DNA from: Halorarius halobius
GTDB lineage: Archaea; Halobacteriota; Halobacteria; Halobacteriales; Haloarculaceae
Direction: 5' to 3'
Length of the DNA: 64,000 nt
Assembly (NCBI RefSeq): GCF_024298865.1
Contig: NZ_CP101161.1
Location: 2,749,227-2,813,226 of the forward strand
Part shown: one piece after another, positions 34,334-45,092 of the stretch
Layout of the letters: every line of letters begins with the position of its first letter
How positions within the stretch are numbered: position 1 is the stretch's first letter
The notes under the pieces: generated by a model
Database searches by the model: none
What the model saw: only the letters and a program-made list of their open reading frames with translations
Told to the model about the DNA's origin: nothing
Program-made: the position numbers and the translations under genes

Positions 34334-34407
34334 CGGACGTGGCGGGATTCGAACCCGCGTTCTAGGGGTTAGGAACCCCTCGCCCTGGTCCACTAGGCCA
34401 CACGTCC
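34334..34407 (-). tRNA. tRNA-Arg (anticodon CCU)
   Basis: On the minus strand the gene folds as a full cloverleaf: acceptor arms GGACGTG/CACGTCC pair over seven bases, the D arm holds GCCTAGTGGACCAGGGC, the anticodon stem AGGGG/CCCCT encloses TTCCTAA with anticodon CCT, and the T arm is GCGGGTTCGAATCCCGC. The CCA end is not encoded. No intron is seen. It decodes AGG, a rare arginine codon in G+C-rich haloarchaea. The 3' end sequence recurs four times just beyond the gene. Confidence 0.95.
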
Positions 34408-34492
34408 CACCGGGAGCACCGCCCCCCGCGAGAAAACGGTTGCGGAGCACCGCCGCTGTCCGGTGGCGTCGAGAGAAGTGGTGGGGTACCCG

Positions 34493-34786
34493 TCAGTTCT
34501 GGGTCGTCTCGTCGGTCTCGGTGGTCGTCTCCGCTGTGGACTCGGTGGTCGTCTCGGAGGTGGTCGTCGTCTCCGTCTCCGAACCCGTCGCGCCCTCGCG
34601 CATCTCGTTGAGCTCCTGTTCGACTTCCTCGCGTCCCTTCTGGAACTCGCCCATGGCCTCGCCGGTCGAGCGTGCCAGTTTCGGAATCTTGTTCGCGCCG
34701 AACAGCAGCACGGCGATGAGCAGGATGACCAGCAGCTCAGGCCCGCCGGGGATGCCGAGCTGCGCCGGGGTGAGTAGTTCGAGCAT
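34493..34786 (-). CDS. tatA: TatA-family Tat translocase subunit (copy 2)
   Basis: A 97-residue membrane protein that oligomerises to let folded proteins through the Tat system. One N-terminal helix (GGPELLVILLIAVLLFG), the hinge NKIPKLARS and the amphipathic helix TGEAMGEFQKGREEVEQEL are typical. The tail is an acidic Thr/Glu stretch (residues 68-97, TTTTSETTTESTAETTTETD). It sits 27 bases after the other TatA copy in the same direction, so they form one transcript. The first 63 residues differ at only four positions; tails diverge. Haloarchaea export most proteins by Tat, so extra TatA copies are plausible. Confidence 0.92.
   Translation of the reverse strand: MLELLTPAQLGIPGGPELLVILLIAVLLFGANKIPKLARSTGEAMGEFQKGREEVEQELNEMREGATGSETETTTTSETTTESTAETTTETDETTQN
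34614..34714. repeat. Near-identical 101-base segment shared by the two tatA genes (copy in tatA 2)
   Basis: Bases 34614-34714 match 34899-34999 with one mismatch (34634 T versus 34919 C), including all third codon positions. Flanks and tails of the two genes differ much more. This marks recent duplication or gene conversion. Confidence 0.85.
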
Positions 34787-34813
34787 CTATGTGCGTGGAT
34801 TACCCGCTCCCGA

Positions 34814-35071
34814 TTATAGGCTTTTTCCTGACGAGCCGTCGCTCGCGGTCTCCGTCGCGGGGGTCGTCGACGCGTCACTCCCGCGCATCTCGTCCAGTTC
34901 CTGTTCGACTTCCTCGCGCCCCTTCTGGAACTCGCCCATGGCCTCGCCGGTCGAGCGTGCCAGTTTCGGAATCTTGTTCGCGCCGAACAGCAGCACGGCA
35001 ACCAGCAGGACCAGCAGTAGCTCCGGTCCGCCGGGGATGCCGAGCTGTGCCGGGGTCAGTAGTTCGAGCAT
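34814..35071 (-). CDS. tatA: TatA-family Tat translocase subunit (copy 1)
   Basis: An 85-residue TatA with the same N-terminal helix (GGPELLLVLLVAVLLFG), hinge NKIPKLARS and amphipathic helix as its downstream copy, and a shorter Ser/Thr-rich tail (TTPATETASDGSSGKSL). The start ATG at 35071 gives MLELLTPAQLGIPG, identical in both copies for 19 residues. It is the first gene of the pair, with 100 bases to the divergent peroxiredoxin gene that must hold both promoters. A TatB role is unlikely since archaea mostly use TatA and TatC only. Confidence 0.92.
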   Translation of the reverse strand: MLELLTPAQLGIPGGPELLLVLLVAVLLFGANKIPKLARSTGEAMGEFQKGREEVEQELDEMRGSDASTTPATETASDGSSGKSL

Positions 35072-35171
35072 CACCCGACCGTTCGGGAGGTGACTTGTAG
35101 GCCTTTCTCCGAGTTGTAAGTCTTCTGCCGGAGCACGAACCCTCTTGACAGCCCGGCGGCAAGTCTGGCGT

Positions 35172-37869: not shown

Positions 37870-38484
37870 CTACGCGTCGGCGTAGCCGGTGCCCCGGAGG
37901 TCGACGCCGTCGCCGGTGATGGTCGCCTCCGCGTCGAAGATGGCCCGGACCGTGTTCGTCGCCTTGTCGTCGTGCATGTCGGGATGGAGCGCGAACAGCC
38001 CGAACAGCTCCGCCGAGCGGATGCGCGAGGTGAACACGTGCAGGAACCGGAACACCGTCTGGAGTTCGCCGTACATCATCAGCGTGGAGACGGACAGCAG
38101 ACCCACCCGCACACGGTCGGCCTGCCCGGCCGACTCGAACCGTTCGAGGTGTTTGGCGAACTCCAGGCTGATGCCCGTCAGGTCGCTGGGCGAGGATAGC
38201 TGACTCACCTGCACGCCCTCCACCTCGGTCGCACCCTTGTCGTTCGTCACGTCGACGATGCCGACCCGAGCGGGGTCGACTCCCCCGCGGTCGTCGAGCG
38301 CGTCGACGATGCGCTCGGCCGAGCGGTCCGCCGTGATGAGAAGCACCGTCTCGCCCTCGCGCAGGCCCTCGGCCGTCGCGTCCAGCACTCGCTCGCGGAC
38401 CGGCGGCGCTTCGCCGGACATGAGCAGGCTCGTCCCGGGGTCGAACGAGAGCCCATCGGAGATGTCCCCCGCCGGATACGTCAC
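37870..38484 (-). CDS. RecA/KaiC-like protein without Walker A (DUF7504-type), coupled to response regulator
   Basis: A 204-residue protein resembling the haloarchaeal RAD55/KaiC-like family (ETVLLITADRSAERIVDAL, DRVRVGLLSVSTLMMYGELQ, VFRFLHVFTSRIRSAELFGLF). The N-terminal phosphate loop is degenerate: LLMSGEAPPVRERVL has no GK(S/T), so ATP binding is probably lost. It overlaps the end of the HalX response regulator by four bases (ATGA), so both proteins are made together. A signalling or scaffold role next to the pilus operon is inferred. Family name is from memory of similar haloarchaeal proteins. Confidence 0.7.
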   Translation of the reverse strand: MTYPAGDISDGLSFDPGTSLLMSGEAPPVRERVLDATAEGLREGETVLLITADRSAERIVDALDDRGGVDPARVGIVDVTNDKGATEVEGVQVSQLSSPSDLTGISLEFAKHLERFESAGQADRVRVGLLSVSTLMMYGELQTVFRFLHVFTSRIRSAELFGLFALHPDMHDDKATNTVRAIFDAEATITGDGVDLRGTGYADA

Positions 38485-39068
38485 TCTGACCCCCTGCGGC
38501 TGGCCTCGTCCTCTATCTCACGGACCATCGCCACGAACTCCCCGTCATCCATCGACGACATCGACGTCTCAAGTTCCTTCCGGATGTCGCCCATGCGCCG
38601 TTCCAGTTCCTCGAACTCCTCGCTGTCGTTTAGTTCCGCCGGCGACTTCGACGACTGGAGCGCCGCACGCTTCGATGCGAGCGCGTACAGCTCCCGCTCC
38701 AGTTCCGCGTGAGTCCCCCGCTCCAGTAACCCCTCGACCGTCTCCAGCAGTTGCTCGTGCCCGACCGGCTTGGTGAGGTAGTCGTCGAACCCCATCTCCA
38801 GGATGTCGAAATCGGGCTCGACCGCGGTCACCATCGCCACCCGACACTCGCTCGTCCGCCCGCGAATCCGACCGAGCACCTCCTCGCCCGTCATCCCCGG
38901 CATCAAGCGGTCGAGCAACACCACGTCGACGCTCCCGTCGAGTCGCTCGAGCGCCTCCTCGCCCCCGTTCGCGGTGCGGACTTCGTACTCCTCCGTGAGC
39001 CAGTGGGTGTAGATCTCGACGAGCGCCTCCTCGTCCTCGACCACCAGCACCGTGGCTTGCTCACCCAT
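38481..39068 (-). CDS. HalX-type response regulator
   Basis: A 195-residue two-component receiver followed by a HalX domain, a haloarchaeal C-terminal helical module. Receiver residues are E11/D12 (VVEDEE), phosphorylated D53 (VVLLDRLMPGMTGEE), T80 (MVTAVEP) and K99 (YLTKPVG). The HalX part (residues about 115-190) is a coiled region with ELYALASKRAALQSSKSPAE and EEFEELERRMGDIRKEL. No DNA-binding domain is seen, so output may be by protein contacts. No histidine kinase lies in the window. It lies downstream of the pilin gene by 175 bases and shares a transcript with the RecA-like gene. Confidence 0.92.
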   Translation of the reverse strand: MGEQATVLVVEDEEALVEIYTHWLTEEYEVRTANGGEEALERLDGSVDVVLLDRLMPGMTGEEVLGRIRGRTSECRVAMVTAVEPDFDILEMGFDDYLTKPVGHEQLLETVEGLLERGTHAELERELYALASKRAALQSSKSPAELNDSEEFEELERRMGDIRKELETSMSSMDDGEFVAMVREIEDEASRRGSE

Positions 39069-39243: not shown

Positions 39244-40929
39244 CTACGCTTCGTTGGCGAACAATTGGACGCTGTATGTCTCGCTATAGCCGCTGTCGTA
39301 GACGATTGTCATTTCTAATATAATTGCATCACCTGAATCTGTGTCAAGTGGGACTTCTTCGTCAAATTGTAGCGTGAGCTGTGAACTACCACTTGGGACA
39401 GTGGGCCCACTGCTGAGAACAACTGGTCCAGATTTTTCCACGATATTGGTGCTAGTTCCATTTAGTTCTGTAATCTTATCTGGACCATCTTTTAGAGCGG
39501 TTGTGCCAGTCGCTGTTAGACTAGCATCTTCACAACTTCCAGTGAGAAGACTTGCAAGGTCACATGCTGTGCCACCTACCAGGCTCGGGGCTCCTGCAAC
39601 TGTCTTGTTATCGGCATATGATATATGTGCGAGAGTAATGCTAGAAATCTGTCTTGTCGAGCCCGTATTAACCAATTCGATAGTTAGCTCATCATTGTTT
39701 GCCTGGCTGGCATCACCCAACACTATCGGGGCATCTTTGCCACCAAAGAAGCCATCCAATTCCTCAAGCTTAGGCTCTACCGTTCCACTATTGTTCAAAT
39801 CCTCTGAGAACTCAACCGTCGTCGCGGTAGCGCCAACTCGTTCTACCGTGGCTACGCCGTTCGGGCCGGTCGTGACACGGACGCTTTGCGCGGAAACGGT
39901 CCCGTTGGAGAGAGTGCCGGACGAGGTGTTCGCCCACAGCGTCACGCCGCCAACCGGATTGTGAAACTCATCGCGGACAATGACCCCGGCAGTCGACCGT
40001 TTGTCCGTCACTGTAGTAGTCAGGTATCTCGGCCCAGGGTCGCCCCCGGTCCCGAACCCGACCTTCGCCGTACGGAAGGTGTACTGGCCGGGCTCCAAGA
40101 CGACCGTCAGGTGGTTGAACTCGCCGGAGCGCGGCTTGTAGCGCACCGCGGAGATGTGGCCGTTGCCGGCGACGGTCCCGCTCCCATTCACCGACGCGCC
40201 CGAGGGGGTGTACTCGTCCGACAGCGTCTCGTTCCACTTCTCCAGCGAGAGCTTCGTCGGCACGGTGACGTTGATGGGGCCGCTGGCGTTGTTCGAAACC
40301 TCGTACTCGCTCATTGGCCCCGACAGCGACTTCGCCGTGACGGCCTCGGCGGTGACGCCGCCCTCCGAGTAGTTGCCACCGACCGCGACGAGGCTTATCT
40401 CGCGGCCGTCGATGAACGAACTCGACTTGACGAGCGTCTCGTTGTCGAACCGCTCGTAGTAGGCCGTCGGCTCCAGCGTCCGGACCGGTTCGCTCCCGTA
40501 CACGTTGTAGTTGATGTCGTAGGTGAGCGCCTTCGTCCCGACGCGGTACACCGGGACGTTGTCGAACAGCGTGCCGGCCTGCGTCGAACTGGTGACGTTC
40601 TCGACGGTGATGTTCGCCCTGTCGGTCGTCGAGAGTCTACCGCTCGCTGGCGGGGGGTTGTAGAACAGTAGCCGCGCGGGGTAGTCGACGCCGAGTTTGA
40701 CCGCGGCCTCACGGCTGTTGCCGCTGGCGACGGCCTCCCAGGTGGCGACCCGGAGGTTCGCCATGTCGTTGGTCACCTCCTGGCTGTGGTCGAACTCGAT
40801 TTCGGCGTTCGCGTCAGGGACGGCCTGCACCTGGATGACCGAGATGACGGCCACGAGAAGCCCGAACACGAGGATGGCACCGATGGTTTCGCTGACTGCA
40901 CGCGAGTCGAGAGTGAGTTCGTCGAACAT
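39244..40929 (-). CDS. Large pilin-like surface glycoprotein with AT-rich C-terminal region
   Basis: A 561-residue exported protein. N-terminal DSRAVSETIGAILVFGLLVA is a type IV pilin/archaellin-like signal, cut by prepilin peptidase before the hydrophobic helix that packs in the filament. The rest is extracellular and has about thirteen N-X-S/T sites (for example NIT, NVT, NYS, NGS, NTS, NKT), so heavy N-glycosylation is likely. Two cysteines (ACDLASLLTGSCED) may form one disulfide. Residues beyond about 367 are coded by DNA much richer in A+T than the rest (23 G+C of 60 at 39301-39360). It follows PilC by two bases: stop and start nearly touch. Role as major or tip pilin is inferred. Confidence 0.8.
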   Translation of the reverse strand: MFDELTLDSRAVSETIGAILVFGLLVAVISVIQVQAVPDANAEIEFDHSQEVTNDMANLRVATWEAVASGNSREAAVKLGVDYPARLLFYNPPPASGRLSTTDRANITVENVTSSTQAGTLFDNVPVYRVGTKALTYDINYNVYGSEPVRTLEPTAYYERFDNETLVKSSSFIDGREISLVAVGGNYSEGGVTAEAVTAKSLSGPMSEYEVSNNASGPINVTVPTKLSLEKWNETLSDEYTPSGASVNGSGTVAGNGHISAVRYKPRSGEFNHLTVVLEPGQYTFRTAKVGFGTGGDPGPRYLTTTVTDKRSTAGVIVRDEFHNPVGGVTLWANTSSGTLSNGTVSAQSVRVTTGPNGVATVERVGATATTVEFSEDLNNSGTVEPKLEELDGFFGGKDAPIVLGDASQANNDELTIELVNTGSTRQISSITLAHISYADNKTVAGAPSLVGGTACDLASLLTGSCEDASLTATGTTALKDGPDKITELNGTSTNIVEKSGPVVLSSGPTVPSGSSQLTLQFDEEVPLDTDSGDAIILEMTIVYDSGYSETYSVQLFANEA

Positions 40930-40931
40930 GG

Positions 40932-42953
40932 TCAGATGAACAGGAACACCGCAAGCGCAAGCGCGACGAGCGCGATGCTGTACTTCAGGCCGGCGAGCAC
41001 GTCGTTGTCGGCGAGTTTGCCCGCCAGTAGTCCGCTCCCGATGCCCTGGATGAGCGCCGAGTGGAAGAACACCGTCCGGTAGGCGTCGACGGGCACCTTC
41101 GTGATGTCGACGAGTCCGGCGTTGGCGGTGCCCGAGGCTTCGCCGGCCATCTCCCCGATGGGGCCGAGATACGACGTATCGAGCAGAACGATGACCGCCA
41201 GGTACACCAGAAAGCCCATGATGACGATTGCGGTGTAGGCTTTCATCTCGCTTTTCCGCTTGGACTCTATCTGGTGGCGGTTGCGGGTGTCCTCGGCGGC
41301 GATGGAGATTATCTTCGCCAGGTCCGACGAGGAGCGCGAGCCCTTGGCGATGAGGTTCATCGTCCGGGTTACCTGAGGCACCTGGAGGCGGTTGGCGAAC
41401 GACAGCAGCGCGCGCTGGACGTCGTAGTTCCAGTTGATGTCGTTGCGGACCTTCCGCAGTTCCTCGGCCATCGTCCCCTCGGACCACCGGGAGACGAGTT
41501 CGAACGAGTCGACCAGCGGGATGCCCATCTGGTTCGCGCTCGAGAGGATGTTGAGCGTGTCGGGGAACCGCTTGGCGATTTTTCGGCGGCGCCGGCGCTG
41601 TATCTCGTAGAACACCGTCAGCGGGAGCGCCGTGATGAGGAACGGGACGACGAAGTAGCCGATGGTCGCCGGAATCGCGTTCTGGGTGATGCCCTGGACC
41701 GACAGCGGGACCTGCCCGGACGCCACGAGCACGCCGACCGCCAGGAACGCCAGCGGCACCGTTCCCACCAGCGACAGCAGGGGGTTCTGGTTCTTGAGGT
41801 GGTCGATGGGGTTCGTCGCCGTTTCCCAGAGGTCGTCGCGGCGCTTGCGCTCCTCGTACTCGGCGAACAGGGGGTGTCCCTCGACCGCGTCGGACGAGAC
41901 GTCACCGCCCCGGTCGGCGGTCGAAATCTCCACCTCGCCGGAGTTCTGCGCGTACGGCCGCGAGAGGTAGTCGACGACGACGAGAAAGCCCGCCATCGCC
42001 AGCGGCAACACCGCGTAGATGATGATGTACGTGGGCGTCAGCGAGTTCGCGCCGAGCAGGCTGATGACCAGAAGCGTCACGATGAGGAACAGCGGCGCGG
42101 CGACGAACAGGACGACGAACACCTCCGACAGCACCGACAGGGTGTCGAGGAACTCGTCCTGTTTCTGCCGTGCCTCGTCCATGTACGATTCGGCCTCGTC
42201 CTCGAGGAAATGCGAGAAGTCACTGCCGGAGTCGAGCACCGAGATGGTGTCGTCGAGGAACTGCTCGAGGTTGTCCGACGGCGTCAGGTTCCGCGCGTCG
42301 CGCAACGCCGTGAACAGGTCGTTGCCGAACAGCTCCACGTCGCGGACTATCATGTCGAACTCCTTTGACACCTCGCCGTAGACGCCCTCGGCGTCCGCGA
42401 GTTCCTCGAACACCTCGAACGTGTTCATCCCCCCGTGGCTGAGTGCGTACATGTAGACGATGGCGTGGGGCAGTTGGATGTCGATGGAGTTGCGCCGACT
42501 CGCCACCACGTTCCGCGGGTAGTAGTACAGGCCGAGAAACGTGCCGGCTCCACAGACCACGACGAAAAGCACCGTCAGCAGGCTCCCGACGAGGTAGGTC
42601 GTCACCGACGCGCCGGTCCCGGCGACGCCAGCGAGGCGGGCGAACGCATCCATGCTGGCTAGCTGGGCGGCAAGCGCCGCACCGACGAGCAGGCCGACGA
42701 CCGCCGCCAGTGCGGCGTAGCGGACCGCGCGGGCGAGGTAGACGTCGTAGGTCTCGCCGAACCGCGCCTGATTGAGCCACCGCTGGATGTCGCGGAACGA
42801 CTCCGGCCGCGTCTTGAAGAACGTCCGCACGTAGCCGTGCTGGTCGCGGAGGCGGTCGCGCTCCTCGCTCGAGAGGTCGCGCTGGTCCGGGAAGTACTGG
42901 TCCAGTTCGTACTCGGGGACGGGGGCCGAGTCGTCGACGTTGGGCTGGCTCAT
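40932..42953 (-). CDS. pilC: Type IV pilus membrane platform protein PilC/TadC-like (system A)
   Basis: A 673-residue membrane protein with about nine hydrophobic segments and two GspF-type cytoplasmic domains. The first (residues 165-295) has QLPHAIVYMYALSHGGMNTF and LDSGSDFSHFLEDE; the second (455-580) has KRFPDTLNILSSANQMGIPL and ASEIS-like TRTMNLIAKGSRSSSDLAK. It anchors the assembly ATPase and turns its motion into pilin insertion. The start overlaps the end of the ATPase gene by four bases and the pilin gene begins two bases after its stop, one operon: ATPase, platform, pilin. Confidence 0.92.
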   Translation of the reverse strand: MSQPNVDDSAPVPEYELDQYFPDQRDLSSEERDRLRDQHGYVRTFFKTRPESFRDIQRWLNQARFGETYDVYLARAVRYAALAAVVGLLVGAALAAQLASMDAFARLAGVAGTGASVTTYLVGSLLTVLFVVVCGAGTFLGLYYYPRNVVASRRNSIDIQLPHAIVYMYALSHGGMNTFEVFEELADAEGVYGEVSKEFDMIVRDVELFGNDLFTALRDARNLTPSDNLEQFLDDTISVLDSGSDFSHFLEDEAESYMDEARQKQDEFLDTLSVLSEVFVVLFVAAPLFLIVTLLVISLLGANSLTPTYIIIYAVLPLAMAGFLVVVDYLSRPYAQNSGEVEISTADRGGDVSSDAVEGHPLFAEYEERKRRDDLWETATNPIDHLKNQNPLLSLVGTVPLAFLAVGVLVASGQVPLSVQGITQNAIPATIGYFVVPFLITALPLTVFYEIQRRRRRKIAKRFPDTLNILSSANQMGIPLVDSFELVSRWSEGTMAEELRKVRNDINWNYDVQRALLSFANRLQVPQVTRTMNLIAKGSRSSSDLAKIISIAAEDTRNRHQIESKRKSEMKAYTAIVIMGFLVYLAVIVLLDTSYLGPIGEMAGEASGTANAGLVDITKVPVDAYRTVFFHSALIQGIGSGLLAGKLADNDVLAGLKYSIALVALALAVFLFI

Positions 42954-44746
42954 TCTGTCAGGTCAGCGGGGCTGAGCGTTCCTTCCTCTATCTGCCGCAT
43001 CAGTTCGACCTCCTCGTTGCCGAACGCGTGGATGGCGTTCGTCACCTCGTGGTAGCCGGTGATGTCGTTCTCGAGCAGGTACTGGAGGAACTCCTCGCGC
43101 TTGCGGCGCTCCTGGGCGAGTTCCTTCTTCGACCAGCCACGGTCGTCGGCGATGTCCTGGAGCACCTGCGAGTTGTTCATCTTCTGGTGGGCGTCGGCGT
43201 CGGCGTCGCGGTTGAACACGTCGATGGCCCGCACCGTCTCGCCGCCGTCGTCGCCCGCGCGTATCTCGGTCACCCCGTCGTTGCGGCGCACCCGGTCGCC
43301 GTCGAGGAACGTCTGCTTCTGGACGGAGATGATGTCCAGGTCGAGTATCATCTGGGTCGGCACCGACAGCGGGTCGTTCTCCAGTCGGTTCAACACGCCC
43401 GCGACGCTCTCGGCATGGATGGTCGTGTAGGCGGTGTGGCCCGTCCCGATGGCCTGGAAGAACGTGAACGCGACGTTCTGTTCGGTCCGTATCTCCCCGA
43501 CCAGCAGGTACTCGGGGCGCTGGCGGAGCGCGGCCTGGAGCAGTTCGTACATCGACACCTCGCCGCGACCCTCCGAGGTGATGGAGTCGCGCGTGAGGCT
43601 CTGAATCCAGTTGTCGTGAGGGAGCGTAATCTCGCGGGTGTCCTCGATGGAGACGACCTTCGAGTCCTCGGGGATGAACATCGAGACAGCGTTCATCGAG
43701 GTGGTCTTCCCCGACCCCGTCCCGCCGGAGAAGATGAGCGAGCGGTTGTTCTCGATGGCCATCCAGAAGTACGCCATCTGCTCGACCGAGAACGTTCCAC
43801 GCTCGATGAGGTCGACCGGCGTGAACGGGATGTTGGCGAACTTCCGGATGGTGAAGTTCGACCCTCGGGTAGAGACGTCCGAGCCGAACGTCAACTGCAC
43901 GCGGGAGCCGTCCGGCAGGGTACCGTCCATCAGCGGCTCCGACACCGATATCTGCTCGCCGGCACGCTGGGCAAGCCGCAGAGCGAACGACGACAGCTCC
44001 TGGCCGTCGAAGGTGATGTTCGTCGGCAGGTCGCGGTGCTCGAAGTGGTAGACGTAGACGGGGATGTCCACCCCGTCACAGGAGACGTCCTCGATGTTCG
44101 GGTCCCGCATGATGGGGTCGATGGGACCGAGGTGGACGAAGTCGCGGATGAGGTAGTACTTCAGTTTGTGGAGGGTGCCGTCCTCGACCGTGGCGGCGGC
44201 GTGGTCGTCGATTATCTCGTCGACTTTCCGCTCGAAGACGGCCTCGCGGTCGTCGCCGTCGTCGAGGTCCTGGTACATCAGTGAGTTGCGGAGTATCTTC
44301 ACCAGGTCCTCGCGGACGTACTCCTCGAACTCCGTCAGTATCGGCTCGTGGACGTGATAGCGGAGTTTGTCGGTCTGTGGGTCCCGCAGGATGGAGACGT
44401 ACGCGAACGGTTTGTTCACCCAGATGCGCTCTACCTCGTCGTAGCTGTCGAGATACGAGAAGTCGAACAGTTTCGTCTTGATGAAGTTCGTCGACGGCGC
44501 GGTGGCGAACGTCTCGTCGAGGTCCGCGTCGTTGAACCACGCCTTCGCCTCGCGGAGCACCTCCCCCTTTATCGGGTGGTCCGCGACGAGACCGCGGTCC
44601 TGCTCGGGCGGCTCCTCGGGCTCTCGCCCGTCGACCGCCTCGGTGTCGTCCGTCGTCTCCGCGTCGGCCTCGGACGCGACGGCGGTCCCGCCGTCGGTCG
44701 CCTCTTCTCCCCGCTCGTCCGCGTCATCCCATGAGAAGTCTGCCAT
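42950..44746 (-). CDS. pilB: Type IV pilus assembly ATPase PilB-like (system A)
   Basis: A 598-residue type II/IV secretion ATPase. An acidic N-terminus (1-55) precedes the family core. Walker A is GGTGSGKT (341-348), the Asp box lies in VVSIEDTREI, Walker B in YLLVGEIRTEQN, and the His box is TGHTAYTTIHAESV. The FTIRKFANIPFTPVDLIERG block is typical of haloarchaeal PilB. The ATG at 44746 is preferred; upstream codons to 44929 run through the AT-rich promoter. It powers pilin polymerisation. Operon with pilC and the pilin-like gene is certain by overlap. Confidence 0.93.
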   Translation of the reverse strand: MADFSWDDADERGEEATDGGTAVASEADAETTDDTEAVDGREPEEPPEQDRGLVADHPIKGEVLREAKAWFNDADLDETFATAPSTNFIKTKLFDFSYLDSYDEVERIWVNKPFAYVSILRDPQTDKLRYHVHEPILTEFEEYVREDLVKILRNSLMYQDLDDGDDREAVFERKVDEIIDDHAAATVEDGTLHKLKYYLIRDFVHLGPIDPIMRDPNIEDVSCDGVDIPVYVYHFEHRDLPTNITFDGQELSSFALRLAQRAGEQISVSEPLMDGTLPDGSRVQLTFGSDVSTRGSNFTIRKFANIPFTPVDLIERGTFSVEQMAYFWMAIENNRSLIFSGGTGSGKTTSMNAVSMFIPEDSKVVSIEDTREITLPHDNWIQSLTRDSITSEGRGEVSMYELLQAALRQRPEYLLVGEIRTEQNVAFTFFQAIGTGHTAYTTIHAESVAGVLNRLENDPLSVPTQMILDLDIISVQKQTFLDGDRVRRNDGVTEIRAGDDGGETVRAIDVFNRDADADAHQKMNNSQVLQDIADDRGWSKKELAQERRKREEFLQYLLENDITGYHEVTNAIHAFGNEEVELMRQIEEGTLSPADLTE

Positions 44747-45092
44747 CTGTCTACTGCCCCCCGAACGGAGTTGACCGATGGTCGGTTCGTGTAGGATTAA
44801 ACATTCGGGTCTGAACGGAGATTCGACTCGACCGTTAAATCGTATTCGGTATTTTCGACGGCTGTATCCCGGACTGACGGCCGAATCGCTCCCGTCCGGA
44901 ATTATAAAAGCCCGGGTATTTTTGGGCATTGAAACGACCCGCCCGGCCCACTTGATAAAAATGGCCGCCGATAACTGGTCGTCTACTGTTCTGTTCGATG
45001 TCCGATGTTATCGAACGACCCCACCCCTCCCATACAGGAGTCACCACCGACGAACTCCGAGTCCAGGGCGGGGTAGCCCCGTTCGGCAGGAA
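44747..45092. promoter_or_regulatory. AT-rich upstream region of pilus operon A
   Basis: About 346 bases without a convincing gene. TATA-like boxes are visible on the minus strand: GTTTAATCC at 44794-44802, about 50 bases from the ATG at 44746, and CTTTTATAATTC at 44899-44910, about 155 bases away. Both could drive the pilB-pilC-pilin operon. The second would give a long leader, rare in haloarchaea. GCCCGGGTATTTTTGGGC at 44910-44927 is a weak hairpin (GCCC/GGGC). The rest reads into tRNA-Gly. Confidence 0.4.

Follow-up and report, generated by a model that had tools for sequence, protein, structure and literature searches.

The pilus locus and its large pilin

The window, a stretch of 64,000 nucleotides from Halorarius halobius, contains a large type IV pilin-like gene (39244..40929; 561 aa, ATG start) which begins 2 nt past the stop codon of pilC; all features of this locus lie on the minus strand. 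Directly upstream are pilC (40932..42953; T2SSF family, Pfam PF00482, E 8.3e-32) and then a gene for a pilB-like assembly ATPase (42950..44929; T2SSE, PF00437, E 1.4e-33; PilB3_C, PF23989, E 1.4e-11), the true start of which may lie inside the annotated frame, and this order links the pilin genetically to pilus assembly genes. With its uniform GC content at third codon positions (GC3, 0.93/0.91), pilC was used as a control gene. Downstream of the pilin lies a gene (38481..39068) whose product, going by its sequence, we take to be a response regulator; it adjoins the pilin in the listed orthologous loci, with 62-71% identity (tblastn), and marks the syntenic locus. Elsewhere in the window, the list of open reading frames includes a near-identical tandem DNA repeat at 34393-35100, one copy of which reads as what is presumably a TatA-like protein; the repeat probably represents two adjacent tatA genes.

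The layout of the protein is that of an archaeal type IV pilin, and the AlphaFold2 model (mean pLDDT 65) is a helix followed by beta-rich domains. The hydrophobic N-terminal helix (residues 9-69; 40723..40905) has a pilin-like start (SRAVSETIGAILVFG) and several invariant alignment positions, and the beta-rich body begins with strands from residue 73. A first beta-rich domain (residues 73-291, model strands 73 to 292; 40057..40713) is conserved among orthologues and is followed by an Ig-like middle domain (residues 301-375, from model strands; 39805..40029), with a D...NP motif (D320, N324, P325) that is invariant in all seven aligned sequences and a match to Pfam Big_1 under the cut-off (E 0.016). 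The third beta-domain, hereafter the tip, covers residues 402-557 and is weakly modelled (block pLDDT 28-65 from residue 401); no Pfam family matched it. The last 20 codons (542-561; 39247..39306) encode a closing beta-hairpin common to the tips designated type A below and alike in the alignment of the Haloglomus and Natronomonas members.

Profile matches to the whole pilin fell below threshold, both for Pfam Pilin_N (E 0.067, 14.5 bits, cut-off 25.2) and for DUF7289 (18.5 bits, gathering cut-off 27), and NCBIfam gave no match up to E 1. A fold search of the model returned generic beta chains with several domains, such as complement and FN3 pairs; normalised by query length, the TM-scores were 0.10-0.19 among the 50 matches listed, and the result was not used. 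Pilin matches were found in 45 of the 58 genomes searched, own genome counted. From its sequence and its neighbours, the gene is predicted to encode a large pilin, probably a minor one, belonging to a type IV pilus locus with pilB and pilC.

A sharply bounded low-GC tract

The original prediction described the C-terminal coding part of the gene as strikingly AT-rich, counting 23 G+C of 60 bases at both 39301-39360 and 39601-39660. Both counts are exact, and the G+C content of 39244-39830 is 47.2%, as against 65.1% for 39847-40929 and 67.9% for the window. The shift had been placed within the one open frame, near residue 367, and here too the prediction holds well; maximum-likelihood segmentation of third codon positions with two breakpoints gives codon 362 for the upstream edge (2-log-unit support 357-363). 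The low composition does not, however, run to the end of the gene, a point absent from the original prediction. The downstream edge is at codon 541 (support 539-543), and a tract internal to the gene is 6.6 log units better supported than one that extends as far as the stop, so that the last 20 codons are back at host composition.

The tract thus delimited (codons 362-541; 39307..39846) is about 540 bp long with a GC content of 46.9%, and encodes most of the distal type-A tip, spanning most of the third beta-domain of the AlphaFold2 model. GC3 is 0.89 for codons 1-361, 0.36 for 362-541 and 0.80 for 542-561. Taken per 30 codons, it is 0.77-0.97 up to residue 300, 0.63 and 0.83 for 301-360, 0.50 at 361-420, 0.20-0.43 at 421-540 and 0.77 from 541 to the stop; none of 2000 codon shuffles matched this drop. 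The upstream edge falls within the conserved Ig-like unit and the downstream edge within the closing hairpin, and these two segments would be the upstream and downstream anchors of an exchange.

Composition relative to the host genome and the pilin family

The codon usage of the tract is not that of the host. Its codons have a mean log-likelihood of -1.21 under a model of low-GC haloarchaeal pilins (G042) as against -2.23 under one of host pilB/pilC, and the same models are reversed for the N-terminal part (-1.50 and -0.92, respectively); for the 20-codon tail the values are -1.08 under a mid-GC pilin model and -1.20 under the host model, the segment being too short to discriminate. The protein encoded by the tract is rich in acidic residues (28 D+E vs 8 K+R), as is expected of proteins in salt-in halophiles, and a donor of the tract would therefore probably be a halophile; taken with the composition, this suggests a low-GC halophile.

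Tracts were ranked in a host sample of 511 kb, made up of 20 stretches of 20 kb each at even spacing, together with three paralogue loci and the window, from which the gene picker removes genes with low GC3 throughout. Among the 356 coding-like genes so sampled the pilin ranks first by tract strength (log-likelihood gain 79.3, the next being 44.2), and in no other gene does the best tract combine a drop of 0.4 or more with a length of 100 codons or more. The genome has five other pilin paralogues, and two of them (L033 and L032) are in the top eight of this ranking, with C-terminal tracts. The C-terminal GC3 of these two is 0.67 vs 0.92 in L032 (6642-8399) and 0.62 vs 0.89 in L033 (9791-11749).

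Across 61 family genes, a set without genes open at a locus end, genes under 380 aa and near-duplicates, the difference in GC3 between N- and C-terminal parts is largest in the window pilin (about 0.52-0.53, the next being 0.28), and its drop lies 5.1 s.d. above the other 60. A lower GC3 in the C-terminal part is nonetheless common in the family (46 of 61 genes; median difference 0.065), and among the orthologues at the locus the 14 others that have a tip range from -0.05 to 0.28, five of them at 0.15-0.28; part of the drop may therefore reflect a general trend. The trend belongs to the pilin rather than to its neighbour, as the mean loss of GC3 in the last 36% of the gene is 0.127 for the pilin and 0.001 for pilC over 11 loci, with the pilin drop the greater in 10 of these (Wilcoxon p 0.003, or 0.006 with the window left out). 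The general drop at the locus could stem from recurrent import of tips with lower GC or from codon selection that is weaker in tips.

All three of these observations would be expected if nothing had been imported and a fast-evolving native tip had drifted to A+T under relaxed or reversed codon selection. However, the edges of the tract are sharp on both sides, and other orthologues come nowhere near a drop of about 0.52-0.53. Furthermore, a loss of codon selection would be expected to shift third positions towards the intergenic value and not far below it, and of the 98 fourfold-degenerate sites in the tract only 34 are G or C, as against an intergenic GC of 0.647 over 255 gaps of the window genome, to which this comparison applies (binomial p 1.4e-9). 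We consider native drift a distinctly unlikely explanation.

Tip types at the orthologous locus

An alignment-based scan of genome contigs identified 14 loci; a scan with a single protein found none. The comparison was based on 16 orthologues, defined as distinct pilins beside both pilC and the response-regulator gene (duplicates and other loci left out), this adjacency being the basis of selection and not independent proof of a link to the pilus. Tips, taken as the sequence beyond window residue 380, were clustered on their blastp hits under single linkage; six genomes have type A, three type B and five type C, and one tip is unmatched and one absent. Type A comprises the window pilin and five from the Haloglomus clade, type B Halorarius litoreus and two members of the Natronomonas genus group, and type C five members of the latter group. 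The window tip had no direct hit to that of L060 in the grouping and was linked to it via other Haloglomus tips; a direct hit (E 1e-5) appears in the set with the unlinked Natronomonas pilins added. There is also a weak hit across types, from C to A (L138-L163, E 0.006).

Conserved flanks with non-homologous middles are thus found at one orthologous locus, which is the pattern of a mosaic surface subunit. Between the window and H. litoreus (BND22), the N-terminal parts are 52% identical and the pilC proteins 77%, and the tips are unrelated (A vs B); the genus is represented in this comparison by two genomes, with one same-genus genome searched and one genome per species. A conserved N-terminal half joined to unrelated C-terminal halves, which the original prediction had looked for among relatives, is accordingly seen in this pair, and again within the Natronomonas genus group. 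The Haloglomus orthologues align with the window pilin end to end and have type-A tips at normal GC, so that the shift is not one common to the orthologues.

Natronomonas pilins not linked to the locus also have type-A tips, again of normal GC. In Natronomonas, L055, L056 and L154 hold a second pilin with a type-A tip, and the pilC-linked pilins of the genus group carry others; no match to pilC was found beside L055 or L056. These unlinked pilins are a possible reservoir of type-A tips. The unmatched tip is that of L133, which has the same length, start and GC3 as L057 of Natronomonas gomsonensis; their drop in GC3 (0.66 to 0.38) is the second largest of the 61, and this tip is perhaps another that has been replaced. 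In L134 (G077, Natronomonas genus group) the syntenic pilin is 373 aa long and ends past the Ig-like domain, the tip being absent.

The loss of recognisable homology in the tail is not peculiar to this pair. In the wider family set (59 of the 61 family genes, two Methanoperedens entries left out), tail homology is detectable in 14 of 67 pairs with an N-terminal identity of 0.45-0.60, and such loss is therefore common at this distance; by itself the count does not separate fast divergence from replacement.

Trees and the ancestral tip

In the tree of N-terminal parts (16 orthologues), the two Halorarius pilins are paired with support of 100/100 and Halorarius groups with Haloglomus at only 82/81. 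The five tip labels need five changes on this tree, the minimum being four, and none of 200 shuffles was as low; tip types are therefore mostly stable within lineages. A second tree included three of the five unlinked Natronomonas pilins listed, the other two starting and scoring like two of those used, and here Halorarius groups with the unlinked type-A pilins (97/94). The tip tree likewise places the window and the unlinked Natronomonas pilins apart from Haloglomus (81/91) and is not in conflict with the N-terminal tree, so that the trees are compatible with the tip protein having descended vertically; in a plain blastp search the window tip scored 62 bits with Haloglomus and 44 bits with the unlinked Natronomonas pilins.

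On these midpoint-rooted trees type A looks ancestral for Halorarius, and the change of type was therefore probably in H. litoreus, which would have acquired B. This bears on the prediction of a swapped surface domain. Unrelated tips do occupy one locus, but the event in the window more likely exchanged the tip for a low-GC one of its own type. The whole distal tip might instead be a new type, imported from a foreign low-GC source in place of, for example, type B. In favour of this, the tip of the congener H. litoreus at this locus is the unrelated type B, the composition breaks some 30 codons ahead of the end of homology to H. litoreus, and N. gomsonensis combines an unmatched tip at this locus with the second largest GC3 drop of the 61 genes. 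The presence of type A at the locus in Haloglomus and in the unlinked Natronomonas pilins, and the rooted trees that favour A as the ancestral state, speak against it, and we regard the arrival of a new type as unlikely.

Searches for a donor and for silent copies

The tip was searched for in overlapping sets of 145 relatives, 392 genomes from the order and 294 from the phylum, and in plasmids, phages and viral contigs, and no close match was found. Beyond the genome of the window even the best matches are no more than 35% identical, a profile search of the 392 genomes of the order gave nothing closer, and a near-identical tip common to separate lineages was not found in the genomes searched.

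The original prediction also raised silent C-terminal cassettes elsewhere in the genome and a comparison with variable archaellins. Programmed switching of the tip from such cassettes, as in antigenic variation, might be imagined in a genome with five other pilin paralogues. However, when this genome was searched with both tips, A and B, and with the Ig-like region (residues 290-393), no silent copy of any of them was found; the matches were the gene itself and one known paralogue, and for the Ig-like domain nothing outside the known pilins was better than E 0.2. Two hits at about this value, on C3 and C5 and with stop codons in frame, were taken as chance. The repeats around the gene are short and chance-like, and the tip types mostly follow lineage; for this reason too the locus is one of slow replacement and not of switching, and we think a cassette system highly improbable.

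The genome has a contamination score of 6.96%, which might raise suspicion of an assembly or contamination artefact. This is scarcely credible given that the gene is one open frame inside a 3.74-Mb contig, that the locus is syntenic with H. litoreus on both sides, and that the same-genus genome scores similarly (6%).

Origin of the tract

The explanation we favour, and hold to be somewhat better than an even bet, is that the tip was replaced via recombination with a homologous pilin of a low-GC halophile. A conserved beta-rich body and Ig-like domain would carry a fast-evolving distal beta-domain. One crossover would have occurred near codon 360, in the conserved Ig-like domain, and the other near codon 541, in the last beta-hairpin, and homologous recombination between both flanks would then have swapped about 540 bp, the incoming DNA deriving from a halophile of much lower G+C which carried a homologous type-A pilin tip. 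This explanation should be treated with some caution as the donor was not found and tip matches do not exceed 35% identity. Flanks only about 50% identical at the protein level, as they are to the nearest genome in the set, would recombine poorly, and a donor must therefore have been closer than that genome.

The case matters because the tip of an archaeal pilin has apparently been replaced within sharp bounds, at a locus with several tip types in 16 genomes. The tip is presumably exposed at the surface and may act in the binding of targets by the pilus or in the use of the pilus by viruses; the specificity of haloarchaeal pili for surfaces, partners or viruses might then lie in domains that can be exchanged, which is testable by tip swaps in one gene. 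A broader and rather doubtful proposal is that a pool of low-GC pilus tips, in unsequenced low-GC halophiles or mobile elements, repeatedly feeds the pilB-pilC-pilin locus of high-GC haloarchaea, the tip being a pilus specificity type which moves between species independently of the host.

Comparison with known systems

The pilin resembles, by description, arCOG02911, a predicted minor pilin of euryarchaeal pili of about 250-550 aa which is all-beta, variable in length and prone to duplication, and for which an Ig fold has been suggested; the parts of that account concerned mention neither tip replacement nor composition (PMC4858521). Among archaeal pilins with a variable region is also UpsA of Sulfolobus, a major pilin from another archaeal group, in which this region sets the self/non-self specificity of cell aggregation (cited in PMC8416519); a role of that kind for the window tip is putative.

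The VARTIG Ig protein of the Thermococcales is, similarly, an archaeal secreted multi-Ig protein in which the distal C-terminal Ig domain varies, apparently through recombination between species (PMC8416519). Its gene neighbourhood is shuffled, whereas that of the pilin is conserved, and it is not described in the available part of that account as lying beside pilB/pilC; the text makes no use of the term 'GC content'. Rhs proteins offer a parallel in composition, with a G+C-rich core and an A+T-rich, exchangeable C-terminal region in one gene, as in the Serratia example (core 67.7%, tip 46.4%), and displacement of one tip by another (PMC2935791). Rhs exchange leaves displaced tips downstream, of which none is seen at the pilin, and unlike in Rhs, host-like composition resumes ahead of the pilin stop codon.

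For the hypervariable regions of flagellins, spread by recombination has been proposed, with the ends of the donor fragment in conserved regions (PMC7018530). The likeness is in the conserved ends and unrelated variable middles at one locus; the flagellins, however, are mainly bacterial and many forms occur inside one species, whereas here an archaeal pilin was compared between species with one genome each. Among the literature matches listed (titles and starts of abstracts, mostly from non-subscription sources), no report concerned tip exchange in haloarchaeal pilins. Set beside these systems, the pilin adds a haloarchaeal example to a process already known, and its signature in base composition is unusually clear.
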